DNA of 64,000 bases, from positions 10,351,000 through 10,414,999 of the forward strand of contig OZ005691.1 of the NCBI GenBank assembly GCA_963930775.1, read 5' to 3'. This document shows, piece by piece, positions 11,950 to 53,598 of this stretch. Every line of letters starts with the position of its first letter. The stretch's first letter is position 1. Source of the DNA: Cliona cf. orientalis (taxonomy: Eukaryota > Porifera > Demospongiae > Clionaida > Clionaidae). Under the pieces are notes generated by a model, which was not told the DNA's origin, searched no databases, and saw only the letters and a list, made by a program, of their open reading frames with translations. A program made the translations under genes and the position numbers.

Positions 11950-14900
11950 ATGGCGGAGGCCAGTAACTCTGGGGGAGTGGCAAGCGAAGAAGAAGATGAT
12001 TCCGATGAAGCTTCTCCGAGTGACGGCGAGATCACCGCGGCTAGCCAGCGCCCGCCGCGACACACCAACAAGAAGAAGGAGCTACGCTACGTTCAAGACT
12101 ACCTACAAAGATTACCGAAGCACCAGCGAAAGAGAATACAAAAAGAAATAGACAAAGGCTACAAACCAGGTATGGCTAGACCACCGCTATGCATACAGCC
12201 ACAAATCATAGATAATTAAGACTGCACAAATTAAATTGGGCTAGTACAGCTATAGCAGAGTGCTATAGCCTCGTCCCCAGGCACTCTTGGGGGAGGGGGA
12301 AAGAGAGCCTGGTAACGACTGCATGCGCATGCGCGAACCCTTACCATGGTAAGGCAGTTTTCACAGCAAACGGCCTTTCGAGGGGACAAAAACTAACGTT
12401 TGAGTGATTTACCTCATTTAAGTCTCCTAGACACCATCACTAACCGATGGCAAGATACTTTTCGAGTGCTTAGGCGACTTTTGAACTTGACTAGTAGTAT
12501 ACGATCAAGTACTCCACGGATAGTATACGGAGATTTTGGCGCATGCGCATGCAGTCGTTACCAGGCTCTCTTTCCCCTCCCCCAAGAGAGCCTGGGGACG
12601 AGGCTAGTACAGCTAATGAATATACACCACTATTTGGCAACCTGAGTTGGGATATTTATATAATTTTGACTACTTAAGGCGCCTCTCTAATAAACGCGCA
12701 ACCTACGCTGCCGATGATCCTAATTTTCGCGCTCTAACCATGTGCCATACGGCTATATTTAATTTATATTTCCAGGTGCGTTCTAATTAGAGCGTAGCGG
12801 CCCCAGAAGGAGGAGAAAAGAGGGTCTGGTACCTATTGCACGCACATGCGCCAACTACCCCAAGAAAACCTGGGGTGCTGCGAACTACTGTACGCTTTTT
12901 CGCCTTCTTCCCGCGGCCTAGGGTACGAGGCTACACCGATATGACATCGCTTCGTACCCTAGGAGCGAGAGGAGAGCGAAAAAGCGTACAGTCATTCGCG
13001 GCACCCCAGGTTTTCTTGGGGTAGTTGGCGCATGCGCGTACAATATTATAGGTACCAGGCCCTTTCTCCTCCCCCTCGATCAAAGGGCCTGGGTACGAGG
13101 CTAATTAGAGCGGTACCAGTATACTTACAGCTGACAATACCTTGGTAGTATTGAGTACCCCGTACGGAGTACTGGAAGCTATGTTCTCCACACTTTCGCT
13201 CTTATTACATGTACAATGCATGCGCCTCTCTAAAAGATGCGCCACCTGGATCAGAACGTTAATTTCCGGGCTCTAATTATGTGCCATCCAAGATCGCTAA
13301 TTATTTTATAGTGGCGCGTTAATTAGATCGGATACGGTAGTCTAGAATAATTATTACGAATAATGTTGAGGAACACTTTCCCACTTTAATTCCTCTGAAG
13401 TTATGTATTCCCCCCCCCCCCCCAAAAAAGACGTAATTAAAATACTCAGACACGTTAAGGACTGGGACCCGCGCGATAATGATATTCATAGCACGGTCCC
13501 CGCCCACCGTACAGCTATCTCCCAGATTGACAAATTTCACACCGAAAATCCAGTGCATACGTGATAATCCTTTGAGTTTATCAATGATTCATCCATGTAC
13601 AGCCAGTAGCAGACCTTCTGAATGGTGATTCTGGAGCAGCTAACTGACAGGTCATGTGACCTAAGCCACACCCGCTAGTAGTGAAGTATAGGAATAGGTA
13701 GACTGTGCTAGGCGGGGTGTTGGAACAAGATGGTTCGGCGAGTTCTGTCGCTCATAGTACTTATGTAAGTAATATCTAAAGATCTGTCGTTTGCAATTTT
13801 TAACTTACCCCTCCAGTTTCTCAAAAGAAGGCTCTATATAGAAAGTGGGAGTGGCACTTTTGTGGATTTTCACCTCTCACTATCAAATGAACGGTCGTTT
13901 TAAAAATTGCAAACGACAAAAATGTTATAAATTAAAGTAAGAAACTACTACTATGGCTATCTAGCTGATCCACGGCAGAGAAGTTCACCGCCTAGCTCAT
14001 CCATGTTGAGTGAAGTGCTTCCACGAAAATGGAGGTGTGTCCGTTGCGGTTTGATGGGCGGGGCTAAAAGATGTGTCATTAGCCACATCAAAGGTTGAAG
14101 AACCTGGGATAACTGTCATATTACTTTATTACTTTTCATTTTGCTGTAACTATGCTTACAAGACATGGTAAAAACAGTGAAATTTAGCTGGTCCCAGTCC
14201 TTAACTGGCCTGAGTAGATCTAGAGGCAGTGACCCCCAAGATATTGTTAATTAAAATGTACCATTTTATCCCCAGAACATCATAAACTAAATAGCCCCAA
14301 GACTTCATCATGCCCAGCTACCCTGTCAACTCCTCATAGTTACCCCGCGCGCATGCGCAAGGGGTAAAGCAATCGGTTTGTCCGACTGTCGTTGTTGTCG
14401 TCGTCGGCATGAAAATCGCCAGATCTCGAGTTCTAGGCATCTGTGTGTACTGTAAGCGCAACCAATCGGTAGATATCGGTGAAAAACTGGTTTATACAGG
14501 CTTTGAATTGCTCAAAAGGGTAAGCTTACTAGTGCTACAAATCATGCATTTTCTTTTCAACATGCCTGTGGTTTATCGACCACACCCACTCTTTTAGCAT
14601 GCTAATGCGACTGCGCATGCTCAAGCTCAGTGTTGGAAAGGGTTGTCAGGTCATAAAACAGCTATGCCGCAGAATGTTGCAACATTACGCTACAGTGGTT
14701 ACAGAGCACGCAGGGTATGTGCTCTACATGCAGAGCTCTAGTTTCTTTACTGTTTTTTTTTGGCAATTTTGCTCACTTGTGATAGCTAAATTTGTCACAA
14801 CAAGCATCCTCAGCCTGAACCGCGGCCAATATTAATTTTTTTGTGATGTCAAGATTCACGTTTACGGACAAAATTTACCAGGATTTCTGAGAATTTTGGT

Positions 14901-17900
14901 GCGTGCGCAGACAGTGTGTACCAGTCTCTCTTTCCTCCCTCTCCCCCCCCCCCCCCCACCCAAAGGTGAGCCTGGATTCAAGGCTATAATTAGAATAATC
15001 CACCTGGTTTGCTAAAGTTATATTATAATTATTCAGTTATATACATGTAGCTGGATAAAACATTGCAAACTGTTAATATTACAAATCAGTAATGCGTTAA
15101 TAATTAAATTGTCTGTCTTCAGAATAATTAAGTTACCTAACATATCCGAAAATTAAATTTTCTGACATGTGCTATCCGTTGTATTATGGAGACAATGGAG
15201 CATACCATTACAATAAGCAATAACCTTGCAGGGTTTGTGTACTAAAATAAATTATAAAACACATCCTTGATTAAATGCGGCATTGCATTTGTGAAAGTGT
15301 GTGTTTCATTGAATCAAGTGAACTCCAGTGCAGCTAGTGTAGCTTTATCGTATACTGATTGATGTGTTCACTCCAATGCCACAGCTCTCACTGTCAACAA
15401 CATCACCAGCGCTCTCAATGGAATAAACTGGGGGACAATTGCTTGGAACATATTTCACCTCCGCAAATCCAAATATGATGAAATATCTGAGCAGTTTTCC
15501 AGTGCCGATGATAGAGTGAGAGCTGCAGTGAGGGAGTGGCTACTACGAGACCCTCTTGCCAGCTGGAGGAGACTGATCCACCAGCTTTATGACAACTATA
15601 ACACAGAGCGAGCAGACAGTATACATCACTACGCTGAGGAGCTGACTGGTATGTACATGATAATGATTATGATTCATACTACACTACACCACATATGATG
15701 CATGGAAAATGCACAAGGGAGAAAGTCACTGGTCTAATATCTATTATATTAGTGCCCAAATAATTTGTAGGAATGCATATGAACATGTAGGCATATGTGT
15801 GGTGTGTTTATGTTTGATACTGTAATTCATAATAATGTGAATTATTCTCCAGTTCAAATGTGTTATGTATAGATGGCATCGGCTCTTATGCATAGGCGTC
15901 GGAACCTGGGGAGCCAGGGGGGCCATGACCCCCCCACTTTTTCAGGCTGACACACCCACTCTTGCCTTGTGCTAAGCAAAAAACAGTGAACTTGTCAATT
16001 TTACCAGTCTGCAATACCCTTCTGTCAGCTCTGAGTCAAAATCATGCTAGTTTCTTCGCTGCTCTCCTTGAAATCGACTGTTTTTGCCTGTTGTCCATCG
16101 TTGTTACTTCATTTTCGCCATCAGTGTCACAAATGCGTTACCGTTAATTAGTGGGCGTGGCTTAAAATTTTGCGCGCGTACTGTACTATGTCCTGGCCCC
16201 CTCACATTAGAAGTGTTTCCGGCGCCTATGTTATGGTCTAGCATCTGATATTTATGCAACAAAATGAATGTACCAGCCAATTTTGCACCAAATTCCAAAG
16301 GTTTTCAACTGAGGGATTTCGCTAAAAAACTTTCTCTCACGAGTTATAGCTTAATCTTTGTCTTTAGCATAGCGAGGTCAGCCATTTTTCAGTTCCCAGT
16401 ATAGTAAACTATGGTTAAATCCCCTCCGTATACTACTTGTGGTAATGCCTGTAGCTATATAATATTATGGCTACAGGATACAGTTCATAGGCTATATATA
16501 GGGCAAACTCAGAAATGCAATCTGTAGCCTACCATTCATCCTGGTCTATAGCTTTTCCTGAAGTGAACCTGGGTTTGCAGAGGCTAGATCATAGCTATGG
16601 TCTCATTACCCCGCGCGCATGCGCAAGGGGTAAAGCAATCGGTTTGTATGTCTGTTGTTGTCGTTGTCGTCATCGGCACGAAAATCGCCAGATCTCGAGT
16701 TCTAGGCGTCTGTGCGTGCTATAAGCACAACCAATCGGTAGATATCGGTGAAAAAATGGTTTATACGCGCTTCGAATTTCTCGAAAAAGCTTACTAGTTC
16801 TACAAATCGTGCATTTTCTGTTCAGCATGCCTGTGGTTTATCGACCACACCCACTCTTTTAGTATGCGGATGCGACTGCGCATGCTCAAGCAATGTGTTG
16901 TAAAGGGTCGTCACGTCATGAAACCGCTACATGTGTGCCTCATAGTATTGCAATACTACGCTAGAGTGGCTACAGGGCGCGCGGGGTATGTGCTCTATAG
17001 AGCTCTAGTTTTAGAATTGAGTGAGTTGCATACATGTACATGTACTCACTATCCTGTCATAGCTATGTAGTGTATGAGGCCAAGCTTGCATGCATATGGT
17101 TGTATCTTGATGACAGTATTAAACTAGCTGTCTGCAGTCTCTATAGCAACCTGGCCAGTATTACTGTTTTAATGAATAACAGCTCACACACATTAGCACA
17201 ATTTAAATAATAATCACTGCAAGAACACCCCAGAACGTAATTTGCACAAAACTACTACATGTAGATACTCCATCTTGACTTGTGACTCACATTGCACAAT
17301 CTCAGTGCAGCATTATTAACCATCATTTTAATAATAATTATGCTGAATTTTGCGCCGAGCGTTTTGCACTTTAGTGCTTTCATTTTACTGTGTAAAATAG
17401 TCTCTTGTGCCCACCTGCATGCATTGAGATTTTGATGCCGCCTTTATGCATACATGTATTATTGATACAGATCATCATGTTTACATGTGTTACTCAGCTA
17501 TAATGAATTTCATAGCATATTGAATGAGATTCATAGCTAATAAGCAAATCAAATAACCTCCTACCGAATACAATATTACATAGGATGAGGAGCAAAAATT
17601 TTTCTTTTTAGCCTTACGTGTGTACATGTATTTATAGCTCCACTCCCCACCCACCCACATGCAATGCTGTTGACATTCCATTGTCTACCTCAGCTGATAA
17701 AATTTTAATGGGAAAAGCTTGACCACATCCCCAATGGAATGAACACCATTGGTGCAAAACCCTCCGTGCTGTGAGATTTATTGCACTAATAGCAGTGACA
17801 GAGTACAGCTAGTCTACATGTTGGAGTAACCACAAAAATGCGCATACAGATTGCACAGCATTACATAATACGACCACGTGTGTGCCAGATCAGCAGATCT

Positions 17901-20900
17901 AGTACAAAGTAAAGCCAAGAAGCATAATTGATAGCCTACAGTGACTACTCAGGTGCATTAGGGACTGGGACAGCCACTTTGCAGAACATTTTTGTGTTAT
18001 GTTTGAGCTGTCATATCTCCCCAAAAGTATGTATGGCTGACATCAAACCTTCACCATAAGTTAGATCAGGGACTCCTCTAACCGCAAACCAACCTCAAGC
18101 TACGCCCACCAATTAACCATACAGTTACGGCTTCAGCAACACACCCACTAATTGAGCAGAAATCGAGAAATGCGGTAGAGAAAAACTACTTGGATATTGA
18201 CGTTTTTACTCTTAACGCGATTGTTACAAATGTATTAACTAATTCTAAAACGGCCAGGCTGCCTGAACTAACAAGTACGAAATAATCAATGAAAAAGTCC
18301 ACTCACGATTGCTGAGACAACAATCTTCTTGAAATAACTCGAAGGATAAGTAACCAATTCGCTTTGCCATTTCAACATCTCATCTTTGTTATCCAAATTA
18401 ACTACTAACCTTTGTTTGCCACTGTCTCTGGTAAGTTTTCTCTACCGCCTCGAGCTGCCTAGACTCTACTGCATGGCTGTATGGCTATGATTGTGGGCGT
18501 ATCCATAAGTCACATGACAAATCAATTTGTGCATCGTGCTATAGTACACCTGGCAAACCTTTACTCAGGAAGGCGAACGGCTCTACAGTGTTTTTGTAAG
18601 TTGATCGAACCTTTATTAGACATTTTCTATCAACAGATAACTCAGTTAGTGAGGGTATACGTAGCACAATAGTGTTATCAAGTCCACGTGATTAATTTAC
18701 ATATGAATAGCTAATTAAGCGCATTGCGCATGGCGCGCACAGTCCCAGTCCTTAATGCACCTGAGTAATGATGAGTTGGTCGAGTTTATAAGAACTATCG
18801 CTTGACCTATACACTAATGTTCTTGAAATGAAGCGGTTGCTGTCACTTTCGTTGATTGAGAGCTCGACAAGAATCGAAGAAGGCAGCGGTGACGTGGTCA
18901 GCAAATATCGTCAGAACTTTTGAACAAAGCGTTTTCAATGAAATCCATACAATTCAGATCTTGAAACTACCACGAAAAGCCTAATGGCACCTTGTTTTAA
19001 ACGTATAAAACAGGTATGTAGCAGCTAGCGCAATAACAGACACACACAGAACGACTACCGTACCCCTCGCGCATGCGCCGAGGGTTAATAACAACATTAA
19101 TAATATTGCCTCACCAAAGCCGATTAATTTTAGGCTGTAAATATTATTATTATTATGCACAGCGGATGATCTCATTACTACCTAATTATCATAGGGTGCA
19201 CCTCTGTTATTGAGCATTCTTTGATATGTCCTTCACATTTCGAATTCCCTCACAGACACTACACTCACTCACAGCAACCTGTCCACTGTACTAAACCATG
19301 TGGTGGACATGGACTACCTGATGGAGTGCCTCAAAATAGCACTCAGTGTGAGGGGGAAGATCAGAGAACACAGCAAGGCTGAAGAGCAGCAGCGAGAGGA
19401 ATGTATCTACTACTGGATGAATGTCAGCCCCTACTCTATGATTGGGTGGGGGGTTCTTGGAGGGTGGCTACACTACCATGGAGAAGAGGCTGCCCTTAGA
19501 GCTGCAAATGAATACATTCAGAGGGTTCCAGGTATGTGTGGGTGTGGTATGTATTGGAATGTAGATCATGCATACATTACACAGCAAATTCATGCCTGCA
19601 GTGATGTACATTGTGTATGTAGCAGTGCATTTGTTGATTACACTGATGCTCACACTGACCACATCTGTGCACATGTCCACCTCCACACACACACACACAC
19701 ACACACTCACCCGTCATACAGAGCCCACATTGACGGTCGATAATCTCACTGCTGTCCTCGACAGCATTCAGGAGCACATGGACTCTGTTCTCAAATACCT
19801 TCACATCCCATCCTCCAAGCAAGGCCAACTCCAGCAGCAGTACGACAGTGGACATGTGAACACAGCCCGTGCTGATTACATCATTGATCACCATCCAAGT
19901 CCCTCTTGGACTATAACAGTGAGTGCATTGTGGTACTGGGGAGCAGCTGGAGCACTGGAAATGGTTCAGAAATTGTATCTCAAAGGTGAGCCATGTGCAC
20001 ACAGCTGTAGGAGTGAGGGGAGAATAATTATTGTCGGTTTCTCAGCTTTGCACTAATTAATGCCATTAACCCTTGACATTAATTAATTATTGGATGTGTA
20101 CAAAACAATTACAAATGAAAGAAATTGGCTTTTATTGTTCTTCATTAATACTCTGTTGATTTTTACATTAACATGTGTATAGTACATGAACAGAGAACCT
20201 TGGTTTACTGATATGTCATAGTGTGTGGAATAGCACATGTGCACACATATCAACCTGTTATCTTATCAGCTCCTGACCATAACTCGCTATAGCATGAGGC
20301 TGTAGGAAACACTCCCACCTTGCCTGACCACTGACCACGATTAATTGGTATCCTAGCAACCAGTTAGAGGTATGTGTGTGCACCCACTATAGGGAACTAC
20401 CCACCTCACAATACATGTAGTGGTAACCACAATACTAAGATAACCATCTGTTGTTTATTGTTTATATGTCTAGATGTCTATACCTATACGTACATACATA
20501 CATACATACACACTATATAGTTAGTGTATGTATGTGTGTGTGTAGCTGTTACCAATTGAACTGACGTTATCCCTTGCGTGTACGTGTGGGGTAATACTGT
20601 ACTTAATGTAATATAACATATTATGGAAAAACTTCAATTTTGAAGAACACGCTCTTTTCTGGTAAAGGTTGTCAATCACTCCTTATACCTGTTATGAAAA
20701 TTTGTAGAATGCTAATTTTTTATGTTTAATTGCATCATATGTTGTATTTGATTAACTACAGCAAGGCCAATATTAATTTTTTGGACAACTACTCTTTGTT
20801 AGTAGCTAGTTAGCATTTCACGCTGTTGATTATTAAACTCTCTCCTCCTGATTATGTGTAACATATTTACCCCGGAATAAAAAGGACCAAATTGTTTGCT

Positions 20901-23900
20901 AACTTTAGTATTCTCAGAGAGTATTAATTTTTGGGGGAAAAACTGTCAAAATTCACGTTTATTATCCGTAACAGTCGCTTCATGCCAAAGCTTGCTGATG
21001 CCCATCATTTTTTAACTCAGACTGTCGTGATTATTAATTATAGAAAGGTAAGGATAAGAAAATTTAATGTTTAAGGTTTATCATTGGTAAACGACGAATA
21101 ATCATCTGTAATCCTCAAAATGGATGTGGTGATAGACACGCTTAAATCAATCACTGGACATACATTTGTATTTCATGCTATCTGATTGCAAACTGTAGAA
21201 TAGTGTCACAATAGTTCCACACATGAAACTCATTAAAATCATCTAATCATAATCAACAACGAGAAAAGGTGTGGGAAACCACAGTTGTGTACAAATCAAC
21301 GCTAAAATACGGGTCCTTTCACCCGTGCTAGTAGGGCATATGTTACTAGTTCCTACATAAGTATTAGTTGCATCATCAATTGGAGTTACACAGCCACTCT
21401 CTACCTCTACACATGCACCTCTATCTCTAGGCACGAGTGAGTCTCGAAGGTTATTTCAACAGTCGATGAAAAGAGGCCATGTAGACATGTACAATGACAA
21501 AATGCTGCTCTATGGAAGTGCAGGAGTGGGAAAAACCTGCACCATGAAAATTGTCGCCGGTGAAAAGCCTCCTGTTGTACGAAATAGCACTCCCGTAGCA
21601 ACCAAGCCGGTGATGATGTATCAGCTCCAAATGATTAAGGGAAAATGGCGCAAGTACATCTCTCAAGATCGCATGAAATTCTGTGCTAGGATCTCCAAAA
21701 CGACACTGGGAAGAGAGATAATCAAAGCCATGAAGAAAGCCAAGATTGCAGAAATGGTACATCGAGCTAAACATCAGGAGGTGGATGGCGGTGGTGAGCA
21801 GAAGACATCGATAGCAGCAAGTTCCCAACAACCGACAAGAGACAGCACCCAGCAAAATGAAGATCCCACTCCAAAACCGAAAGCTTCATCGCGAAGCTCA
21901 GTCGATCGTGACGTGCTCCAAGTTATTCATGATGTGCTTGATGAGATGTTCCAGCTGATTGACGAGTGTCCCGAGACAGAAGAGCCCCTCACCTTTATTC
22001 ACAAGCTCCTGGTGTCCGACTGTGGTGGCCAGCCTCAATTCCATGAAATCTTGCCCATATTTTTGCGAAGGATGTCATTGATAATATTCGTTTTCAAGCT
22101 TTCTGAAAGCTTCTCCAATCGTCCAATGATCGAGTATTACGAAGACGGCAAAGCATTGGGCACTCCCTATGAGTCTCACCACACAACAGAGCAGCTCATC
22201 AAGGAAGGCCTCCAGTCACTTCATACTCACCGGTCGAGCAAAGGTGCAGGTAAAGATGGTGAAGCTCCACGAATAGTTATGGTCGGGACCCACAAGGACG
22301 AAGAAAGCAAATGTGATGAATCGAGAGAAACGAAAGACCAGAAGCTGAGAGAAATGCTGTTGCCAACGTTTGAGAAGGAGATCATCTACTATGACCCAGG
22401 AGAAAATAAAGTTCTCTTTCCCATGAATGCCAAGTGTCCTGGTGTTGAAGAGGAGGATATGGCTCAAGCCATTGTCTCCAGGTTCTCCATAGAGAATAGA
22501 TCAGATGCGAAGAAGCTTCCACTGCAATGGCTGGGTTTCGAAATAATGCTTGAAGAAATCACTCAGCGACTTAAGCGTGGAATTCTGAGCAGGAGTGAGT
22601 GTCTTGAAGTTGCCTATAGACTTCACCTTGACGAGAGTGCACTAGATGCAGCTCTGATCTATCTTGATGAGCTGTCGCTGGTCTTCTACTATCCCGACAT
22701 TCTTCCCGAAATAGTCTTCACCAACCCTCAGGTGCTTCTTGACAAAATCTCAGAGCTTGTGAAAGTTCATCATGACAAGCTTAAGAGGTGTACAGGAGAA
22801 GATTGGCAGAGATTTTTCTGTCACGCTCTAGTCACGGTGGAGTTTCTTCTAGATGCGACATTCAAAAAGCATTATGTTCCAGGTATGTTTGAGCCAAAGC
22901 ACCTTGTTCTCTTGTACCGAAAGCTTCTAATCTTTGCTGATTTCACTGAGGGTGAGTTCTTTGTTCCTAGCTTGCTTCGAATGCTTAGCAACGAGGAACT
23001 CTCAACACAGCGTGTTTTAGTTGAGTCGATAGTAGCTCCTCTAGTCCTTCACTTTCCTGATGGCCCTCCTCGCCGTGGCATCTTCTGTGCTCTTACTTCT
23101 TTCTTGACCTCGCCAGAAAACCACTTCCCAGGTCCTTGGGCTCTTAAGAAGCCTGCCAGATCGGTCACTCCAACCTGCCTACACCGAAATTGCATCCAGT
23201 TCATGATCCCTTGCGTGAAAACGCCTTGCACTGTGACTCTCATCGACACATTGCTTCAATTTGAGATTCACGTGAGCATCTCTTCTGCGCCGGTAGCGTC
23301 TAAGCTTTGTTCTACAATCAAAGGTGCCATCTCTACCGGTTTGAGAAAAGCCAACCTTGTGTTGGGCTACACCAATTCGACTCCATCTTTTGCTCTCCTT
23401 TGTCCATGTGGAAAGGGGGACGCTCATCCCGCTACCATTGGAGACGGGTGTTGGATTTGCAGTCTGGATGTTGGAGTTGGTAAGGAGTTTGACGCCACTC
23501 AGCTGTTTTGGACTGTGGAAGATAGTCCATCCGAAGATTGTACTGGTAAGCATAGTTCACATTCTTGTATAAATAGTAATTAGCGTAAGCCGCCATATAT
23601 CGGCATGTACGTAATACCGGCACCGCCCGTGTCTATCATTGGCATCTAGTTTACGACGTATTTTACGGGATTATGCGGACATCGCTGAAGCGTTTACGGA
23701 CCTGAAACTTTCAATGGCCATTGCACACCAAGAAAAGTAAACAGGAAGAAAAGGATGATATTACTGGCAAGAAGGTGTGGCGAAGAAGCTCTATACCAAG
23801 TTCGATCAAAATCGGATGAATTATCTGGCGTCTACAGGGAGAAACAGCTCATGGCGGCTTTACCGTGGCCTAGCAAGAGCTAGAAAGATTATTATTCCGT

Positions 23901-29519: not shown

Positions 29520-29522
29520 AGC

Positions 29523-29665: not shown

Positions 29666-30799
29666 TATACTTATATAATATTAGAAATCATATTATGCAT
29701 AATGACCTTGTATTATGAGAAAAATAATTTTAGCCTTGTTCTTTCCTATACCATTCTACTGTTCGGCATGCAATTCTAAAAAGTAGGCCTGCACCTTATT
29801 ATAAATTTATCGTAGTTCTACTCCCAATTCATTGACGATCATTTCTCTAATCTGATGTTGCTCTCTTTGTTAGTGACATTTCTATCCATTGACCTGTATG
29901 TGATACGGTAGCAATGGCTGACTCTCTCAGTCTTCGGGTGAACAAACTTATCAATCAGTTACACCTTTTCCACTAAATCCCCAGCTGACGATCCAACTAG
30001 TTCACGAAAGTCATTTCATTAAATTTTTCTTTGGGTAGCCAAAACGCGATGTCTTTGTAGCAAGGTGGATATTTGCTAAAAGGTTTGAACACGATATTCG
30101 TCCTGGGGTCTAGTCCAACTGATGAGAACTGCTCGATAAATCTCTCATCTTTGCTCCAAAGCAGTCGAATGTCGGGGGTTATGGAATAAGATGGCCTAAT
30201 GGCCTTGTGGCTTTATGGCCAAATGGCCTTAAGGTAAGCAAGCACCTTGTTTAAGGTACCATGGACTATTCTAGCCTGTCCCCAGGTGTCTTGCTAGGAA
30301 TAGCTATTCGTGACTCTCTGTCAGTTTTGATCTGACACTGAAATTTATGATTGTTGAACTATCTGATCAGTGAAAGATATGTACTTATTTGAGCAATTAA
30401 GATTCTTCAAAGATAAATATATAGCTAGTCCCCATATATAGCAATGGTATCCTATCCAGGTACACGACAGTCGAGTCCAACTTAACGTCAGTAACATGTT
30501 TGTGTCGACATGACAGGGTAACTCTATTAATTTAACTACACACCTCATGACACCTGTGATTAGATTGTACAATAATTATGAGTAAGTAACATATCATAGA
30601 GTCGGTAGACTCTATAAGTAGGGATGGCATGGATACTCCATATATATAATACATTACAAAAATCCAAATATATCAAAACAGGTAACTTTGTGAACTTTCT
30701 AAGCGTCAAAATCAGAATCTACAGCAAATTATGTATCTAACAAGACCAAGATCATCCATGAACTCAATTGTATATGCCAGAACCAGATGTTCAAAAAAA

Positions 30800-31568: not shown

Positions 31569-31590
31569 TATATACTGAGCCATTTGTCAA

Positions 31591-31620
31591 TCTTTCTTTC
31601 TTCTTTCTTTCTTTCTTTCT
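31591..31620. repeat. TTTC-type microsatellite
   Basis: Short imperfect run of CTTT/TTCT units. Confidence 0.8.
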
Positions 31621-40600: not shown

Positions 40601-42268
40601 TGGATGTTTCAGAGCAACCAGATGCAGGCTTCTGCTCATCAATCAAGCGCGCTATCGCTGCTGGCTTGCAAAAAGCTAATCTCACATTGGGCTACACGAA
40701 TTCAACACCTTCTTTTGCCTTTCTTTGTCCTTGTGGAGTGGGAGAGCCTCATCCTGCTAAGATTGGAAAGAAATCATGGATCTGCACTTTGAATAAAGCG
40801 AAGGGCAAGAACTTTTCACCTAGCCAAATAGTATGGCTGGATGAAGCATCCTCTGACCCTGAATCAGGTTATTTGTGAATTATAGTCAAATATCGATATT
40901 TTGATTTATTCTTGATCCATTGATTTTAGTTACTCAGATGAGTAAAGGTGCATGTAACAATGGACACACTGTGAAAATGACTACTTCATCTTTGAAACCA
41001 GGTATTTTTGCTTTACTGACTACTTTTAAAAATGAACTGTATGTGATAATATTTAGCTATGGATATCAATAATTTTTGACCTCTATAGCTTCGAATTTAG
41101 CACTATTTTTGTCTCTCTTTACTACCCAAAGGTCCAACTGTTCCAGCTGAACTGACTCTCCAGGATGTAGCTGCTCAAGCTGGTCTCAAAACGCTGGATG
41201 TTCTCGATCAAGAGTGCTCCCAGCAAGTCCTCCTAAGACTAGCCAAACACTGTGTGGACTGGCAGCTGACCGGCTTCCATCTGGAGCTGACAAAATCTGA
41301 CATCGTTGCAGTGGATGAAGATTATCGAACAGCCGAGCAAAAGCGTGTCGAGATGTTGAGAAAGTGGAAAGAGAAGTTTGCCTTCAAAGCTACTTATCGG
41401 GTGTTCATCGAGGCCTTGTTGTCGTGTGGAAAAGCTTCAGATGCCATTGATGCATGCAGAGCTATCGTATCCAGTAAGTGAAAATAACTGCACTATCAGC
41501 TACTAATTTTTATTTTACTGAATTCTCATTGTGATGTGCATGCAGGTGTAAAAGTGCCAGCTGAAGATGAGAAGGGGAATTTGAAGTTCAGTAGTACCAC
41601 GTCTGATGACGATTTCTTTAAGTGGCTTCGATCAAAAGGAATTAGTGAAAAAGATTGCAGTACTCTCTCTGGTACATGTATAATAAGCACCATAATTATA
41701 ACTACATGTATAATATTATTAGCATCTTGAATTTAATTATATATAACTAGCCTTCCACATAAACACCTGTTGCTTGCTCAGGCTCGCTCCACAATGCTGT
41801 GCATTTTACTATAGTAAGGCCAGACCAATTTAATTTGTTGTTGCTCGGATTTTGTGAGATAAAAATTGGAGCGAGCGATCGAAAAAAAAAGAAGAAAAAA
41901 AAGCAATTAATTGGGTGTGGTTATAGACCATAATCTAATTAAGACAGACTAATGCGACTATCTAGGACCAGGAAATCAAGATAGAATACAAAAGCCACTC
42001 TACTATACATAAGCTCCATCCAACTTAATTTTCTGTTTGCCCAAAAATTGGAGCGAGAGAATCCGTGCAACAACTTATTAAATTGGTCTGGCCTAATAAT
42101 AGTAATTGAATGTAAAATTTAGAGTCACTGATCTTTTCTATTATTATAATAGATAATGGTGTCATAGCGGCTGGATTCTCCCAGTTGGACGAAGAAGATT
42201 TTGAAGATCTTGGACTCACTAAAATTGGCAAGAAACTGATTATAAAGATCCTACGAGAATCAAAATAG
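34682..42268 (+). CDS. ROC-COR GTPase with Death and SAM domains, paralogue B
   Basis: Nine exons, all junctions phase 1: 34682-34898, 35725-35988, 36758-37033, 37232-37495, 38753-40867, 40930-41001, 41132-41473, 41546-41671, 42153-42268. The product is 1263 residues with the same layout as A: basic/acidic N-terminus, three Death-like modules (about 73-160, 161-252, 253-340), ROC-COR (341-1045) with GSAGVGKT, DCGGQ and GTHKD intact, a 24-residue Thr/Ser linker, Death (1070-1183) and SAM (1184-1263). The ROC half is almost identical to A and C. The C-terminal third of the ROC-COR exon resembles C far more than A. The exon-5 donor is GTTATT, weaker than usual; reading through it would give a stop within a few codons. 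Introns are shorter than in A and largely free of MITEs. Confidence 0.85.
37192..37216. repeat. (CA)n microsatellite, paralogue B
   Basis: Same intron position as in A and C. Confidence 0.9.
37496..38752. other. Intron 4 of paralogue B
   Basis: 1.26-kb intron before the ROC-COR exon. It holds a decayed head of the CCCCGCGCGCATGCGC repeat at 38178-38270 (ATTACCCCGCGTGCATGTGC). No gene is seen. Confidence 0.5.
41820..42090. repeat. Inverted-repeat insertion in the SAM intron of paralogue B
   Basis: The left AGGCCAGACCAATTTAAT...AAAATTGGAGCGAG and the right end, which reads AAAATTGGAGCGAG then AATTGGTCTGGCCTAA, form inverted ends of about 270 bp. A MITE-like insertion between the two SAM exons; non-coding. 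Confidence 0.55.
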
Positions 42269-42846: not shown

Positions 42847-43880
42847 TTATCGTAGTTCTACTCCCAGTTCATTGACGATCATTTCTCTAATCTGATCTTG
42901 AATGATGTTGCTCTGTTTGTTAGTGACATTTCTATCCATTGACCTGTATGTGATACGGTAGCAATGGCTGACTCTCTCAGTCTTCGGGTGAACAAACTTA
43001 TCAATCAGTTCCACCTTTTCCACTAAATCCTCAGCTGACGATCAAACTATTTCATGAAAGTCATTTTCATTGAATTTTTCCTTGGGTAGCCAAAATGCGA
43101 TGTCTTTGTAGCAAGGTGGATATTTGAACACTATATTAATTCGTCTTGCCAGTTGGGGTCTAGTCCAACTGATAAAAACTGCTCGATAGATCTCTTGTCT
43201 TTGCTCCAAAACAGTCGAATGTCGGGAATATCAAACAAAAGCATTGCCAGGCGGTCCAGTCCTAAACCAAAGGCCCATTCGATTCGATCAGTAACACCTC
43301 CATTTTCCAATACTGGTTGCCTCATTATGCCAGATCCCAGCATCTCCATCCACTCTCCTTGAAACTTGATCTCCAATTCGTAGGACGGATGAGTGAAAGG
43401 AAAATAGCACGTCGTCCACCTAGTCTCAATGTCACTTCCAAATAACTCCTTCATCAATTTGATCAAGGTCTCCTTCATATTAAACTCCATCATCTTCACA
43501 GCATCCATTGTATGTGGAGCTTGCTTTTTACTCGTCTCTTCTCGTAAGCTTGGATCTGTTTCGAACAGCACCAGTTCTGAATCTTCACCGCCATTACTTT
43601 TGAACAGTTCCTCTCTTGAGAACAACCTCATTCCCTCCATTTGATGGGAAATGGGATAGTGACTCGAATCTATCTCATCACGTCTGTAGACATCTGCCTT
43701 GCAAGAAACTGATTGCAGCCCATCCGAATGTGCAGAAGTGTGCGCACGAAGCATGGTTGTGCGATTGATGTAATAGTTGTCATTTTTGCTCCTTGTGACG
43801 TGATCTTTAGCTACCAATATTATGCTATCGAAATTCTACTTTGTGGTGACTATTGGGCTGGCATTATCAAAGTGAGCATA
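42847..43880 (-). pseudogene. FARS2 relic between paralogues B and C
   Basis: Matches FARS2 from its stop codon back to about a quarter of the way into the protein; the 5' part is missing beyond AAGTGAGCATA at 43880. The longest open piece (43131-43817) covers the catalytic core with [14 protein letters not shown] and [10 protein letters not shown], but the frame is wrong around [11 protein letters not shown] (compare AHQRDFIRMGC in the intact gene) and breaks again before the anticodon-binding domain. The region corresponding to the start codon and presequence is gone, so this copy cannot give the full enzyme. Confidence 0.9.
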
Positions 43881-44539: not shown

Positions 44540-47500
44540 ATGGCGGAGGCCAGCAGCTCTGGGGGAGAGGCAAGCGAAGAAGAAGATGACTCCGATGAAG
44601 CTTCTCCGAGTGACGGCGAGATCACCGCGGCTAGCCAGCGTCCGCAGCGACATACCAACAAGAGGAAGAAGTTACGTTACTTTCAAGACTACCTACAAAG
44701 ATTACCGAAGCACCAGCGAAAGAGAATACAAAAACAAATCGACAAAGGCTACAAACCAGGTGAGACCACCCCAGCCCCTCCCCCCTCCCCCAAAGTACAG
44801 TATTGGAAAGTGGTCGATGATCGTATTATTGTCATTGAATGTGATGATGAACTGATAGCAGATGACGATTATTACCAGTTTGCCCTTCCCCCATCCCACC
44901 CACAAATAATACTTATTGGAGCAAAGAGGTGTATAAGCTATTACAAATAAAGCTAAACCTGAACTACAACGTATACATGTACCGTATCCTCCCGAAAATA
45001 AGCCCCCCTTTTTCAGCAGTAGACATGACCTAGACTGGGGAGGGGGCTTATTTTCGAATATGCACTTTCCCTCGAATATATAAGCCCCCCTTAGCCACCA
45101 TCGTTGGTCACGTACCGCGGGACAGAGTTTGCTCATCTTTTCTCCAAAAGAGCGGCAGCGAGATGACCTGTCAAATAGACGGCAACACGAGGATCGGCGG
45201 TGGGAAAAGTACTTGTTGTTCCGTGTGTGTACGTCTTTAGAGGAAAGTAAAAGCATCTTGACCGGCTCGTAAGTGTCTTCGCCAAACTAGAAGTGCCATC
45301 ATAACAGAATGACTTCAAAACAGGCTTTTCTAAAAGCCAGCACACATGCAGCACCATCTTTGTACTCGTAGTCAATTGAAGGGCGGGGTTACGTACGTAC
45401 GTGCTCGCGCGCGTGTACCGTATAGCGGGAAATTTTCGAGGGAGAAAACTTTCGCGGATCGGTAGGATAGGAGCATTTCGCGGAGAAAACTTTCGCGGAA
45501 TGTCAAAACTGGTCGCATAATGGGTGTGGCATGCCTAAAATTTCGTGGAGAAAACTTTCGCGGATTGCTGAAAAATCGCGAAATTCGTGAAAGTTTTCTC
45601 CCTAGAAAAGTTCCCGCTATACGGTATATATGTGCAGTCTATCTACTTGGTGGGAGGGGGGCTTATAATCGAGGCAAACATACCTGTGCAAGAACTTGAA
45701 GGTCAAAGAGGGAGGGGGCTTATTTTCGGGAGGATACGGTATTATACATGTATCATAATAAATTATGATATTGTACAGCAGCTAGGATACAGTCAAAATG
45801 TCCTAACATTATAATACTTGATCACTATCAATGTCTTAGTTGTTGAGAATAGCCACTGCACAGCTAGGCTAAATGGATTGAATCCCTTCATTCCCCCTCC
45901 CCTGACTAAACAAGTAAGGAAACTGCTTCTGTGGCTCGCCACCGCCACATGCCTTAATTACCAGAAATCTCCATTGACAACAGATCAGTTGACAGGTAGG
46001 GAGGGGAGCTGGGCCGGGGGAGAGCATTCTCAATGCACATGTACATAATACATGTGTATATCCTGTCTGCCCAACTCTTGACTGAGCGTGCATAATATAA
46101 TAGCAAGAGTATTATAAAGAGGGGGAGGGAGAGTATCAAACCGCGTATAATATGTTGTGTGTAACAGCTGTTCATACGGTTCATAACCTTTGTAATGATA
46201 TTCATGTTTGGAGGTCACCCTAATTACAGCCCAGGCCAGCCACGTGTGCACACACAAGTATACCCCATAGTAGTGCTATATAGTGCGTGTGCAAGAGTAC
46301 TGGTACATTCCAGAGTGACCTCCACAAATTAATATCATGAACCGTACGAACAGCCGTTACACACGGCATATACGCGGTTCGATACTCTCCCTCTCTCTCT
46401 TTATGTACTCTTGATAATAGAGAGGGGTCATTCAGTGAGTAGAATGGTCATGTAGCTACCTTAAAACTGAATAAACACCAACATACCGTATTTTTTCTAA
46501 AAATTCGGCATGAAAATAATAAATTATATTGCTTTAGCTTCGCCGAATTTTTCGAGATTAATATTCAACATTCTGTCTGTGTGCGGGTTCCATTCCCGTT
46601 TATATATAGCATATACGTATGACGATCTTTGCCGAAAATTAGAGACTATTTTCAATCATTCGGTAAAGGGTGCCGAATAATTAAAAGGGCCGGATTTTTA
46701 GAAGAAATACGGTACCTCAGACTGTTGTTGTGTTTTATTATGGTCGTCCTCACTTAGTATTTACTGAATACATTCATGAAACTGTGCATGTGCTATGTGT
46801 GAACTATAAACGATTTTGTATGGAGACAGTGGAGCATACAATCATACAAGCGATAACCTTGTGGTTTTTAAATCAGTGTTAAAAATTACCCATTAATATA
46901 GTTGGCTAAATTACCAAACATAACTATGTAAGTATGATTAAATTGTATTTGTGGAAGTATGTATTCCAAGTGAACTCCAGTGCAGCTAGTGTAGCTTTAT
47001 CCTATACTGATTGATGTGTTCACTCCAATGCCACAGCTTTCACTGTCGACAACATCACCAGCGCTCTCAATGGAATAGGCTGGGGGATAATTGGTGCATA
47101 CATATTTAACCTCCCCACCTCCAAATATGATGAAATAACAGAGCAGTTTTCCAGTGCTGATGATAGAGTGAGAGCTGCAGCAAAGTTATGGCTGCTACGA
47201 GACCCTCTTGCTAGCTGGAGGAGACTGATCCACCAGCTTTATTTCTATGATGAAGCAGAGCGAGCAGACAGTATACTTCACTACGCTGAGGAGCTGACTG
47301 GTATGTACATGATAATGATTATGATTCATACTACACAACACCATATGATGCAAATGCATAAGGGAGTAAGTCACTGGTCTATATAATATCTATACTGTAA
47401 CAAATTAGTGCCCAAAAATTTGTAGGAATGCATGTCAACATGTAGGCATGTGTGTGGTGTGTTTATGTTTGATACATGTTTGTATTGTAATTCATAATAA

Positions 47501-50500
47501 TGTGAATTATTCTCCAGTTCAAATGTGTTATGTATAGATGGCATCGCCTCTTATGGTCAAGCATCTTTTATTTTATTGTGTAAAGTAGTTTCTTATCCCC
47601 ACCTGCATTGAGATTTTGATGCCGCCTTTATGCATACATGTATTATTGATACAGACCATCATGTTTACATGTGTTACTCAGCTATATATAATGAATTTCA
47701 TAGCATATTGAATGAGATTCATAGCTAATAAGCAAATCAAATAACCTCCCGCCAAATTCAATATTACATAGGATGAGGAGCAAAAATCTTTCTTTTTAGC
47801 CTTACGTGTGTACATGTATTTATAGCTCCACTCCCCACCCACCCACATGCAATGCTGTTGACATTCCATTGTCTACCTCAGCTGATAAATTAAAATTTTT
47901 AATGGGAAAAAATTGATCACATCCCCAATAGAATAATAACATTGATATTGCCTCACCAAAGCTGATTAATTTTAGGCTGTAGATGTATTATTATTATTAT
48001 TATGCACAGTGGATGGGAACCAGGAATCTCATTACTACCTAATTATCATAGGGTGCACCTCTGTTATTGAGCATTCTTTAATGTTTCCTTCACATTTCCC
48101 TCACAGACACTACACTCACTCACAGCAACCTTTCCACTGTACTAAACCATGTGGTGGACATGGACAGGCTGATGGCCTGCCTCGATATGCCAGGCAGTGT
48201 GCAGAAGAAGATCAGAGAACACAGCAAGGATGAAGAGCAGCAGCGAGAGGAATGTATCTACTACTGGATGAATGTCAGCCCCTACTATATGATTGGATGG
48301 GGGGTTCTTGGAGGGTGGCTACACTACCATGGACAAGAAGCTGCCCTTAGAGCTGCAAATGAATACATTCAGAGGGCTCCAGGTACATGTGGGTGTGGCA
48401 TGTGTATGTATTGGAATGTAGATCATGCATACATTACACAGCAAATTCATGCCTGCAGTGATGTACATTGTGTATGTAGCAGTGCATTTGTTGATTACAC
48501 TGATGCTCACACTGACCACATCTGCGCACATGTCCACCTCCACACACACACACACACACACACACCCGTCATACAGAGCCCACATTGACAGTCGATAATC
48601 TCACTGCTGTCCTCGATAATGTTCAGGAGAACATGAACTGGGTTCTCAAATACCTTCACATCCCATCCTCCATGCGACATCAACTCCAGCAGCAGTACGA
48701 CAGTGGACAGGTGAACACAGCCCGTGCTGATTACATCATTGATCATCATCCAAGTCTCTCTTGGACGATGATAGCCAATTCGTTGTGGTACTGTGGAGAA
48801 GCTGGAGCACTAGAAATGGTTCAGATATTGTATCTCAAAGGTGAGCCATGTGCACACAGCTGTAGGAGTGAGGGGAGAATACTATTGTAAGTTTCTGAGC
48901 TTTGCATTAATTAATGCCACTACATCTTGACATTAATTTTTTTGGACGTGTACAAAGAAGTACTAGTGAAAGATATTGCTTTAAATTTAATGTTCTTCAT
49001 TATTACTCTATTGATATTTAAATTAACATGTGTGTAGTACATGGTCTTGGCTTACTGATATACATGTTATCTAATCAGCTCCTTACCATAAGTCATGAGG
49101 CTGTGGGAAACACTCGAGCAGACCTTGCCTCACCACTGACCACGATTAATAGTATTTTGTTTCCTGGGTCCCTGTAGCATTATAGTACACATACTGATAG
49201 TCCAGTGGCATATTACACAGTGAACTGGAGCGGTGGCACATTATGTGGATGAGTGAGGATCTAATCAACTATCAAGCGATTATTGTTTACAACAGCTAGT
49301 AGCAATACTACAACTGCTAATTATTACAATTGAATTGCATAATGTGCTCTATAGAATAATTGGTATCCTAGCAACCAGCTAGGGGTATGTGTGTGCACCC
49401 ACTATAGGGAACTACCCACCTCACAATACATGTAGTGGTAACCACAATACTAGGATAGCCAGCTGTTAATTTTGATTGTGCTGTCTAGGTATCTATATAA
49501 TAATTATATAGAAAGCTATACATGTACATGTATATATTAAATATATACATGTACATGTATAGCTTTCTAGTGCATGTATATGTGTGTGTGTACTATAATT
49601 AATATCTCCACAGGAATAAAACTATTTTTCAATGCGTAGTAGCTATTACCCATAGAATTGATTGCTTTATCCCTTGCGCATGTGCGGGGAGGGGGGGGGG
49701 GTAGTAATAAGGCTGATATTAATTTTATTGTTGGTAGCTAATTGGCATTTCACGATTATCATGTGAAAACGTTATGATTCTATGTATAAACTCTGTCCTC
49801 TTAATGCTGTGTAAGATATCTGGATGAAAAGGACCAAGTTACATTTTGCTAAAATTAATTCCCACGGATTATGGAAATATATAGGAGGAGGGATGGCTTA
49901 TTTTAAGTAGTAAGACATACAATAAACCTGTACACTTTAATACTACTAATATTATCTATTATCGCTGAGGCCTGCCAACGCCATCACTTTTAGACGTCCG
50001 ACCCATTTTTAGACATCTGACTGTTAATTATAGAAATTTTAGAATAACAAATTTAATGTTGAGGGTCTATCAACAAAATGGTTGTTATACTATCTTAATA
50101 CAAATTCTGAATAATTCTAATCGTATCATCATAATAATACCACACGTCTCGCTTGTCTTAAAATAGTCAATCATCTTATAGCAGTCAACAGTGACAAATG
50201 GCATGGCTAAATGGGAAACGCAGTTGCGCGTGAATCAACGCTGTCACCATGAAAATACATGATCGCAAAAATATGTGGTCCTTTTCACCCGGGCTAGTAC
50301 CATGCATCACTAGATCCTATTTGAGCATTAGTTGCATCATCAACTGGACTTACACAGCTACTCTCTACCTCTACACATGCACCTCTATCTCTAGGCACGA
50401 GTGAGTCTCGAAGGTTATTTCAACAGTCGATGAAAAGAGGCCATGCAGACATGTATAATGACAAAATGCTGCTCTATGGAAGTGCAGGAGTGGGAAAAAC

Positions 50501-53500
50501 CTGCACCATGAAAATTGTTGCCGGTGAAAAACCTCCTGTTGTACGAAATAGCACTCCCGTAGCAACCAAGCCAGTGACGATGTATCAGCTCCAAATGATT
50601 AAGGGAAAATGGCGCAAATACATCTCTCAAGATCGCATGAAACTCTGCGCTAGGATCTCCAAAACGACACTGGGAAGAGAGATAATCAAAGCCATGAAGA
50701 AAGCCAAGATTGCAGAAGCGGTACATCGAGCTAAACATCAGGAGGTGGATGGCGGTGGTGAGCAGAAGACATCGACAGCAGCAAGTCCCCAACAACCGAC
50801 AAGAGACAGCACCTGGCAAAATGAAGATCCCACTCCAAAACCGAAAGCATCATTGCGAAGCTCAGTCGATCGTGACGTGCTCCAAGTTATTCATGATGTG
50901 CTTGATGAGATGTTCCAGCTGATTGACGAGTGTCCCGAGACAGAAGAGCCCCTCACCTTTATTCACAAGCTCCTGGTGTCCGACTGTGGTGGCCAGCCTC
51001 AATTCCATGAAATCTTGCCCATATTTTTACGAAGGATGTCGTTGATAGTATTCGTCTTCAAGCTTTCCGAAAGCTTCTCCAGTCGTCCAATGATTGAGTA
51101 TTACGAAGACGGCAAAGCATTGGGCTCTCCGTATGAGTCTCACCACACAACAGAGCAGCTCATCAAGGAAGGCCTCCAGTCACTTCACACTCACCGGTCG
51201 AGCAAAGGTGCAGGCAAAGATGGTGAAGCTCCACAAATAGTTATGGTCGGGACCCACAAGGACGAAGAAAGTATATGCGATGAATCGAGAGAAACGAAAG
51301 ACCAGAAGCTGAGAGAAATGCTGCTGCCAACGTTTGCGAAAGAGATCATCTACTATAAGCCAGGAGAAAATAAAGTGCTCTTTCCCATGAATGCCAAGTG
51401 TCCTGGTGTTGAAGAGGAGGATATGGCTCAAGCCATTGTCTCCAGGTTCTCCACAGAGAACAGATCAGATGCGAAGAAGCTTCCACTGCAGTGGCTGGGT
51501 TTCGAAATAATGCTTGAAGAAATCACTCAGCGACTTAAGCGTGGAATTCTGAGCAGGAGTGAGTGTCTTGAAGTCGCCTATAGACTTCACCTTGACGAGA
51601 GTGCACTAGATGCAGCCCTTATCTACCTTGATGAGCTGTCACTGGTCTTCTACTATCCCGACATTCTTCCCGAGATAGTCTTCACCAACCCTCAGGTGCT
51701 TCTTGACAAAATCTCAGAGCTTGTGAAAGTTCATCACGATAAGCTCAAGATCGGTTCAGGAGAAGATTGGCAGAATTTTTTCTGTCATGCTCAAATCACA
51801 ATCGAGTTTCTTCGAGAATCGATGTTCAAAAAGCATTATGTTCCCGGTCTCTTTGAGCCAGAGCAGCTATCCACCTTGTACCGAAAGCTTCTTATCTTTG
51901 CCGACTTTTCTGAGGGTAAGTTCTTTGTTCCCAGCTTGCTTCGAATGCTTAGCAGCAAGGAAGTATCTGAGCATCGGCTTTCGTTTGATTCGTTCATCGC
52001 TCCTCTTGTCCTTCACTTCCCTGATGGCCCTCCACATCGTGGCATCTTCTGTGCTCTCATTTCCTTCTTGACCTCACCAGAGAATCACTACCCTCATCCA
52101 TGGAAGTTGAAGAAACCTGCCAGATCTGTTACTCCTGACTGCCTCTACCGAAATTGCATCGAATTCTCGATTTCTGAAGCCGATACCCCATGCTGTGTGA
52201 CAGTCATCGATACCTTGCTCCAGTTCGAAGTTCACGTGGATGTTTCAGAGCAACCAGATGCAGATTTTTGCTCATCAATCAAGCGCGCTATCGCTGCTGG
52301 CTTGCAAAAGGCTAATCTCACGTTGGGCTACACGAATTCGACACCTTCTTTTGCCTTTCTTTGCTCTTGCGGAGTGGGAGAGCCTCACCCTGCTAAGATT
52401 GGAAAGAAATCATGGATCTGCACGATAAACGAAGCAAAGGGTAAGAAATTTTCTCCCAACCAGATGGTGTGGCTCGATGAAGCAACCTCTGAATCTAAAT
52501 CAGGTTAGTTCTTAATTACAGACGAGAATGGACATATATAATTTCTTATTGATCTGTTTAGATACCCAGACTAGTAAAGGAAATAGAGATGCAGGTAATA
52601 ATGGACACACTGTGAAGACATCAGATTCTACTCCATCTTTGAAACCAGGTAAAAATTAATTGATACTTTGGCATTGTGATCATATATGAGCATGCTGCCA
52701 TGTATTCGTTTATCAGATTGTACTCCCAGTAATACTGATGACAAACCGACACCTCATTTTCATAACAATGGACACTCTTCAGCAGCAACAGGTCCGGCTA
52801 AAAGATAATTATTATAATTATTTTTGCTTTGAATTATGAACTATTTTTGTCTCCCTTTATTACCCAAAGGTCCAACTGCTCCAGCTGAACTGACTCTCCA
52901 GGATGTAGCTGCTCAAGCTGGTCTCAAAACGCTGGATGTTCTGGATCAAGAGTGCTCTCAGCAAGTCCTCCTAAGACTAGCCAAACACTGTGTGGACTGG
53001 CAGCTGACCGGCTTCCATCTAGAGCTGACAAAATCTGAAATTACTGCCGTGGATGGTGATTACCGATCAATCGATGAGAAGAGGATTGGTATGCTGGGGA
53101 GATGGAAAGAGAAGTTTGCCTTCAAAGCTACTTATCGAGTGTTCATCGAGGCCTTGTTGTCGTGCAGAAAGGCTTCAGATGCCATTGATGCATGCAAAGA
53201 TATTGTATCCAGTAAGTGAAAATAATAATATTTTGCTAGCTGTATACACTATTACATTTATTTTATTGTGATGTGCAGGTGTAAACGTGCCAGCTGAAGA
53301 TGAGAAGGGGAATTTGAAGTTCAGCAGTACCATGTCTGATGACGATATCTTTAAATGGCTTCGAATAAAAGGAATTAATGAAAAAGATTGCAGTACTCTC
53401 TCTGGTACATATATAACTATTATTAGCAGTAGAACATGAATTTAAAAGTGATGATCTCATATCTATATTATTGTATTTATAGAAAGTGGTATCACAGCGG

Positions 53501-53598
53501 CTGGATTCTCCCAGTTGGATAAAGAAGATTTTGAAGACCTTGGACTCACTAAAATTGGCAAGAAACTAATTCTAAAGATCCTACCAGAATCAAAATAG
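44540..53598 (+). CDS. ROC-COR GTPase with Death and SAM domains, paralogue C
   Basis: Ten exons, all phase 1: 44540-44759, 47037-47300, 48107-48382, 48577-48840, 50395-52503, 52562-52648, 52717-52791, 52870-53211, 53279-53404, 53483-53598. The product is 1292 residues. Layout: N-terminus (1-73); Death-like modules about 74-161, 162-253 and 254-341; ROC-COR 342-1044 with GSAGVGKT, DCGGQ and GTHKD; two linker exons (1045-1098) rich in Ser, Thr, Asn, His; Death 1099-1212; SAM 1213-1292. The second linker exon has an unusual donor (GTCCGG), so it may be skipped; skipping keeps frame because the exon is 75 nt. Otherwise close to B. It converges on the intact FARS2 gene, whose stop lies 425 bp beyond. 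Confidence 0.85.
44980..45741. mobile_element. TACCGTATCCTCCCGAAAATAAGCC element
   Basis: 762 bp with inverted ends TACCGTATCCTCCCGAAAAT and its inverse, inner arms with TAAGCCCCCC. Contains a second TACCG element at 45416-45626. In intron 1 of paralogue C. No real coding frame. Confidence 0.85.
45416..45626. mobile_element. Nested TACCGTATAGCGGGAA MITE
   Basis: Inverted ends TACCGTATAGCGGGAA, with repeats of GAGAAAACTTTCGCGG inside. Nested within 44980-45741, so it inserted later. Confidence 0.85.
46096..46425. mobile_element. Fold-back MITE in intron 1 of paralogue C
   Basis: The left arm GAGAGTATCAAACCGCGTATA...TTGGAGGTCACC pairs with the right arm GAGTGACCTCCAC...TATACGCGGTTCGATACTCTC. 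About 110-bp arms around an 85-bp loop. Confidence 0.8.
46484..46714. mobile_element. TACCGTATTTTTTCTAAAAATTCGG MITE
   Basis: 231 bp with inverted ends TACCGTATTT-TTCTAAAAAT and its inverse. Internal GCCGAATTTTTCG and CGGCATGAAAA words. Another TACCG-ended element. Confidence 0.8.
48540..48565. repeat. (CA)n microsatellite, paralogue C
   Basis: Same intron position as in A and B. Confidence 0.9.
49509..49569. repeat. 61-bp perfect palindrome
   Basis: Two 30-base arms (TAGAAAGCTATACATGTACA... and its exact inverse) around a single central A. Lies in intron 4 of paralogue C; absent from A and B. Confidence 0.9.

Follow-up and report, generated by a model that had tools for sequence, protein, structure and literature searches.

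The 64,000-nucleotide stretch analysed here (the window; contig 3, 10,351,000-10,414,999, in the 217-Mb genome of the sponge Cliona cf. orientalis) carries three genes whose predicted products combine three N-terminal Death-like modules (A, B and C), a central ROC-COR-like core, a Death domain and a C-terminal SAM domain. Our reading, held with modest confidence, is that the window is the end of a large tandem array of intracellular recognition proteins with hypervariable Death-fold modules. Supporting it directly are the modelled genes and their array, a Death fold for module C, an excess of amino-acid change at fixed positions and purifying selection on the ROC-COR-like exon. The hypervariable codons of the Death-like modules are the strongest feature of the locus and were absent from the initial annotation, which had been made from the sequence and described a tandem triplication.

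Gene models and extent of the array

Self-comparison of the window revealed three homologous segments, for which models were derived exon by exon from conserved exon boundaries. The modelled exons begin at 11950 and end at 53598, and each copy has the same order: exon 1, Death-like exons A, B and C (264, 276 and 264 nt), a ROC-COR-like exon some 2.1 kb long, none, one or two short linker exons, a Death exon and a SAM domain spread over two exons. AG precedes and GT follows each internal exon, every intron of the three copies is in phase 1, and none of the copies contains an in-frame stop. The resulting proteins measure 1263 residues for copy 2 and 1292 for copy 3; copy 1 reaches 1243 residues without a linker and 1269 with a 26-residue linker exon at 24465-24542, the sole 78-nt candidate of the right phase (phase 1) in that intron. 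These are the limits and lengths given by the initial annotation for three complete genes (1269, 1263 and 1292 residues, 11950 to 53598), that of copy 1 being reached with the candidate linker. Because the ROC-COR-like exon is under purifying selection (ratio of non-synonymous to synonymous differences, pN/pS, of 0.26 among 18 copies), a chance origin of the gene models is excluded. The features are as follows, with limits taken from the exon models.

11950..12169 (+) copy 1, exon 1 (start codon, acidic/basic tail)
15385..15648 (+) copy 1, Death-like exon A
19256..19531 (+) copy 1, Death-like exon B
19722..19985 (+) copy 1, Death-like exon C
21431..23545 (+) copy 1, ROC-COR-like exon (Roc 22.5 bits, cut-off 27)
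24465..24542 (+) copy 1, candidate linker exon
24598..24948 (+) copy 1, Death exon (Pfam Death 26.6 bits, cut-off 22.6)
25020..25145 (+) copy 1, SAM exon, first half
28237..28352 (+) copy 1, SAM exon, second half and stop, past a 3-kb intron
34682..34898 (+) copy 2, exon 1
35725..35988 (+) copy 2, Death-like exon A
36758..37033 (+) copy 2, Death-like exon B
37232..37495 (+) copy 2, Death-like exon C (module with predicted structure)
37282..37335 (+) copy 2, module C variable stretch, residues 17-34 (helix 1-2 loop to start of helix 3), with most hypervariable codons
37444..37452 (+) copy 2, module C hypervariable codons, residues 71-73 (helix 5-6 loop)
38753..40867 (+) copy 2, ROC-COR-like exon (also Pfam scan)
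40930..41001 (+) copy 2, linker exon
41132..41473 (+) copy 2, Death exon (Pfam Death 28.0 bits, cut-off 22.6)
41546..41671 (+) copy 2, SAM exon, first half
42153..42268 (+) copy 2, SAM exon, second half and stop
44540..44759 (+) copy 3, exon 1
47037..47300 (+) copy 3, Death-like exon A
48107..48382 (+) copy 3, Death-like exon B
48577..48840 (+) copy 3, Death-like exon C
50395..52503 (+) copy 3, ROC-COR-like exon
52562..52648 (+) copy 3, linker exon 1
52717..52791 (+) copy 3, linker exon 2
52870..53211 (+) copy 3, Death exon (Pfam Death 17.5 bits, under cut-off 22.6; 87% identity to the copy 2 exon)
53279..53404 (+) copy 3, SAM exon, first half
53483..53598 (+) copy 3, SAM exon, second half and stop

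The three genes are not a triplication standing by itself, and that description is rejected: scored matches place at least 22 ROC-COR copies, all in one orientation, on the + strand of contig 3 from 9.93 to 10.40 Mb, of which those in the window are the final three. A second cluster lies on the − strand of the same contig at 10.57-11.01 Mb (20 scored matches), and more family groups are found elsewhere on contig 3 and on other contigs. A genome search with the ROC-COR exon as query yielded 65 rows, 63 of the 581 first-look candidates having been scored, and one with the 97-residue COR end yielded 150 matches, all at E ≤ 2e-5, with 150 of 322 candidates scored. These figures, which supply the paralogue count that the initial annotation had called for, are lower bounds because only part of the candidates was scored. 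A neighbourhood count that took in 148 of the 150 COR-end rows found a B-type Death-like module within 12 kb upstream on the same strand in 95 of them (69 of the best 75) and none within 12 kb on the opposite strand; the + array holds 35 B-type modules for 22 COR rows.

Exon order was compared in 16 copies whose upstream DNA extended for 4.8 kb or more: one at 5.58 Mb and 15 array members, the window copies among them. Module A was present in 13 copies, one of which is truncated by the end of the stretch; B was present in 15, of which one is cut, and C likewise in 15. The ROC-COR, Death and both SAM exons were present in all 16, some of them truncated by an end or interrupted by a stop; exon 1 lay within the fetched stretch in seven, and in the copy at 9994142 modules A, B and C were all unseen in the fetched stretch. 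Exon order is kept across these relatives and intron phase in the window copies, and on this sequence evidence the possibility raised by the initial annotation of separate genes for the 5′ exons or for the Death and SAM exons is rejected. At least one unit (locus L047, positions 124-1430; C3:10313500-10323000) has B and C modules and no ROC-COR exon before the next exon 1, and is possibly a short adaptor, a decoy or a broken gene.

Hypervariable positions in the Death-like modules

A six-helix Death fold was obtained for module C in the predicted structure of copy 2, and the structures closest to this model include the Death domains of FADD and RIPK1 (6aci, 6ac5). Modules A, B and C are mutually about 21-29% identical, and A and B would share the fold of C as its homologues. 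Pfam Death matched one of 36 A, B and C modules (E = 0.0029), short of its cut-off, and a PDB profile search with the Death-like modules returned a tautomerase as best match (E = 0.18), with the NRADD Death domain at E = 0.67. The three N-terminal Death folds proposed in the initial annotation are thus upheld for C by the structure model, in which the failure to score as a Death fold that it had warned of did not occur, and for A and B by sequence homology only, and find no backing from Pfam beyond that single match.

Hypervariable codons, defined as those with at least four amino acids, number 13 in A, 10 in B and 11 in C; some show seven to nine amino acids, and adjoining codons are nearly invariant. 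Their positions mostly match across the modules and fall in helices 2-3 and the helix 5-6 loop, within a conserved framework. Of the structural elements, helix 2 (0.25-0.27), helix 3 (0.16-0.21) and the helix 5-6 loop (0.27-0.49) show much non-synonymous change, whereas helix 1 (0.02-0.04), helix 4 (0.00-0.10), the helix 4-5 loop (0.00-0.08) and helix 6 (0.02-0.04) show little. Variable positions 17, 20/21, 24, 27, 30 and 33/34 are spaced by three or four residues, a periodicity as for one face.

Pairwise comparison of close copies gave pN/pS values of 0.96 for A (12 copies), 1.03 for B (14) and 0.69 for C (14), against 0.26 for the ROC-COR-like exon (18), 0.45 for the Death exon (17), 0.70 and 0.47 for the SAM halves (19) and 0.26 for exon 1 (7). 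When columns picked as hot in two modules were tried on the third, their non-synonymous change relative to the exon-wide pS was 2.21 in A, 3.07 in B and 1.80 in C (permutation p = 1e-4 each). Module A is covered by this cross-module test, and B and C also by a held-out test in which columns chosen from a first set of + array copies were applied to new + copies (19 B and 19 C modules from 20 stretches) and to the − cluster (20 B and 18 C from 20). Tree-based counts of non-synonymous to synonymous changes at the hot codons were 83/6 and 100/11 in B and 131/19 and 85/10 in C (new + copies and − cluster, respectively, here and below). The local ratio of substitution rates (dN/dS) at these codons was 2.94 and 1.88 in B (p = 0.0027 and 0.021) and 1.86 and 2.30 in C (p = 0.0062 and 0.007), or 7.0 and 4.9 in B and 2.3 and 2.7 in C relative to the exon-wide dS. 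The remaining codons gave 0.65 and 0.47 in B and 0.48 and 0.57 in C.

The ROC-COR-like core and exchangeable exons

The central exon likely encodes a ROC-COR domain, an assignment from sequence that is not proven. It evolves at a dN/dS of 0.21 and contains GSAGVGKT (G1), DCGGQ (G3) and THKD (G4), which we take to be Roc motifs. All 15 family members tested matched Pfam Roc around the G3 motif at E ≤ 0.1, the best at 1.2e-4, under the curated cut-off. Comparison by hhalign with five proteins of ROC-COR type from this genome (one LRR-type, three ankyrin-type and DAPK-like, and one other) aligned columns 194-523 with E = 7.4e-6 and a probability of 84%, and the COR half alone gave E = 5.4e-4 and 30%. 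A PDB profile search with the ROC-COR exon produced one chance-like match, CD45 (E = 0.024), and in a control locus (L007) LRR, Roc and COR were all clear by Pfam. In the family exons scanned, Pfam reported no kinase, ankyrin, LRR, NACHT or TRADD-N, although divergent forms of TRADD-N could escape. The LRR-free ROC-COR GTPase of the initial annotation is therefore in agreement with the scan in being LRR-free, and keeps a GTPase-like centre and the hhalign match, with the reservations from Pfam that are weighed below.

The second Death domain that it had described was recovered, and the C-terminal SAM domain is probable. Pfam Death scores lie above the cut-off in copies 1 and 2 and below it in copy 3; the SAM exon pair of copy 2 falls short of the SAM_2 cut-off (16.3 against 20.5 bits), a paralogue peptide (L032) reaches 25.2 bits, and phmmer aligned the SHANK2 SAM domain at E = 0.004. 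Other clusters have a different Death exon after ROC-COR, over the cut-off in L030, L031 and L034 and below it in L033. In L032 (C3:9129550-9137840, − strand) a CARD-like exon (21.7 bits against a cut-off of 23.9) and then SAM come after the ROC-COR exon, in place of Death and SAM. One of the close copies carries two Death exons.

Between copy 2 and the copy at 9939581, the difference is 0.7% in B, 1% in the B-C intron and 0% in C, but A differs by 16%, Death by 11.5% and ROC-COR by 5.7%. As every intron is in phase 1, an exon swap, or potentially an exon skip, would keep the reading frame. Two main types of Death exon sequence (…SDIVAVDEDY… and …SEITAVDGDY…) are interspersed among the array copies (for example, window 41132-41473 and 52870-53211), which suggests that this exon is exchanged too. 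The family thus shows few positively selected codons per exchanged module, as judged from the held-out group tests and one clear exchange pair, with codon C30 alone at the level of single sites.

Interpretation, related systems and surroundings

We propose that the variable faces (helix 2-3 and the helix 5-6 loop) would bind changing partners, microbial or allogeneic molecules, and that binding would be relayed through nucleotide-dependent dimerisation of the conserved ROC-COR-like core. The C-terminal Death and SAM domains, or in other clusters another Death domain or CARD and SAM, would then assemble a defence or cell-death complex, and new specificities could arise from point change at hot codons and phase-1 exon exchange among copies. 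Rapid change at few fixed positions is the pattern expected of non-self recognition proteins, and the nucleotide-gated immune or cell-death scaffold that the initial annotation had in mind is plausible. A bolder version would see a Death-fold recognition repertoire with three antibody-like variable modules per protein, a GTPase core, exchangeable Death/SAM/CARD tails and megabase-scale arrays in which selection and exon exchange generate diversity, serving microbial or allogeneic recognition; this we advance tentatively, as a somewhat less than even prospect. Death folds are known as conserved assembly adaptors. If the variable faces bind non-self, the family would be a receptor repertoire with the Death fold as its variable part, comparable to brown algal LRR-ROCO and fungal WD40-NACHT proteins, and would provide a concrete gene set for microbe recognition by early animals with few receptor types and for sponge allorecognition.

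The hypervariable faces could alternatively be a private pairing code by which the proteins choose Death-fold partners and form parallel complexes without cross-reaction and without a foreign ligand. By the contact types I, II and III described for Death folds (PMC7156525), the variable elements coincide with the H2-H3 side of type I and the H5-H6 side of type II and touch type III elements. However, the opposite sides of the type I and type II contacts (H1, H4 and the H4-H5 loop) vary little in the same modules, which is at odds with pairing between copies of one module unless the partner is another variable protein; because these elements are conserved, a binding surface on a constant frame fits better than pairing among copies, and we consider a pairing code unlikely. 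It is rather improbable that the hot residues are escape positions in Death-like modules or decoy copies targeted by microbial effectors: the FADD and RIPK1 structures named above were, by their titles, studied with a bacterial effector, and units without a ROC-COR exon could serve as decoys, but matching hot positions in all three modules, across a large array, suggest a recognition repertoire more than escape at a single target. An ordinary expanded DAPK-like signalling family, whose copies differ in dosage or tissue and vary without a recognition role, would account for the C-terminal Death exon and for the match between the family profile and DAPK-like ankyrin-ROC-COR proteins from this genome. 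Such a family is very unlikely given that the variation is limited to fixed module positions and recurs in the second cluster, and that kinase and ankyrin are unmatched in the exons scanned. Relaxed constraint, with dispensable N-terminal modules drifting neutrally after duplication, agrees with whole-module pN/pS values near 1 in A and B and with the stops in some copies. In its pure form it is rejected, and we hold it to be extremely improbable, since hot codons exceed 1 in held-out copies against 0.47-0.65 at the other codons of B and C, and since pN at held-out hot codons (0.30-0.47) exceeds the distances of flanking introns (0.046-0.232; first set, crude alignments).

Several observations weigh against a recognition repertoire built on a ROC-COR core. 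In site-by-site tests, which are low-powered, the single codon C30 passes a 5% false discovery rate. Synonymous change is higher at the hot codons of B than elsewhere (0.200 versus 0.055 and 0.263 versus 0.083), and the excess may therefore partly reflect raised local mutation or the counting of multi-base changes; a general mutation hot spot is rejected, the excess being mainly non-synonymous, with the raised pS of B not fully accounted for. The trees and the assumption of independence are approximate because the copies exchange sequence, and in five of 20 close copies a stop interrupts the reading frame of the ROC-COR or Death exon. The window copies score 21.2-22.5 bits for Roc, below the cut-off of 27, Pfam COR-A and COR-B gave no match at E ≤ 0.1 in the ROC-COR-like exons scanned, and the AlphaFold model of this exon is not usable (predicted local distance difference test, pLDDT, of 41). 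We infer recognition from sequence and a structure model.

The literature surveyed, with subscription papers mostly outside it, contained no report of hypervariable Death folds or of this architecture. In what follows, statements on known systems refer to the available parts of the cited sources. Three groups of ROCO proteins are described, among which the DAPK1 group has a Death domain and no LRR (PMC6337361), and the window family fits none of the three fully. It resembles the DAPK group in its ROC-COR-like core, its Death domain and the LRR not being found, and its profile aligns to DAPK-like ankyrin-ROC-COR and two other ROC-COR proteins of the same genome; it differs in that no kinase or ankyrin was found and in its three hypervariable N-terminal Death-like modules, its terminal SAM domain and its dozens to hundreds of copies. 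In working principle, brown algal LRR-ROCO and fungal HNWD proteins are closest; in setting, the Amphimedon TRADD-N family and sponge NLRs.

The brown algal LRR-ROCO proteins, candidate immune receptors with exon shuffling and four selected sites per LRR, likewise form a large ROCO family with repeat modules encoded by exons of uniform phase and few selected positions per module, but their variable module is a 72-bp LRR exon and no Death-SAM tail is described, whereas that of the window family is a Death fold of about 88 residues (PMC11378527). Podospora HNWD/NWD proteins share repeat modules exchanged among members, selected codons on a conserved framework and an NTPase core, with four codons per WD40 repeat under strong positive selection and concerted evolution; they combine a WD40 propeller with NACHT and have a known role in allorecognition, whereas the window family combines a Death fold with a ROC-COR-like core and its link to allorecognition is our inference (PMC1805685). 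The Amphimedon expansion is also lineage-specific in a sponge, with one to three N-terminal Death-superfamily domains and a variable C-terminal part, but is defined by TRADD-N, unmatched by Pfam in the window family, and neither hypervariable Death positions nor ROC-COR are described there (PMC8195603). Sponge NLRs are a large intracellular family with N-terminal Death or CARD domains as well, built on NACHT and LRR, neither of which Pfam reports in the window family exons scanned (PMC12909245).

A phenylalanyl-tRNA synthetase gene (tRNA-synt_2d and FDX-ACB, FARS2-like) lies downstream of copy 3 at 54026-55504 (−). A truncated copy matching tRNA-synt_2d is found downstream of copy 2 (43134-43835, −), and a shorter piece without a Pfam match upstream of it (34039-34575, −), as if these pieces had been carried along by tandem duplication. 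A tnp2-type transposase open reading frame (ORF) precedes the first gene (8221-10908, +), an OTU protease ORF lies within the long SAM intron of copy 1 (26328-26687, +), and a direct repeat of 781 bp with 96% identity (13439-14219 and 30793-31573) is probably a mobile element. Neighbouring ORFs on the + strand encode a protein kinase (6086-7366), an RRM protein (56261-57742) and a 6-phosphogluconolactonase-like protein (62090-62893).

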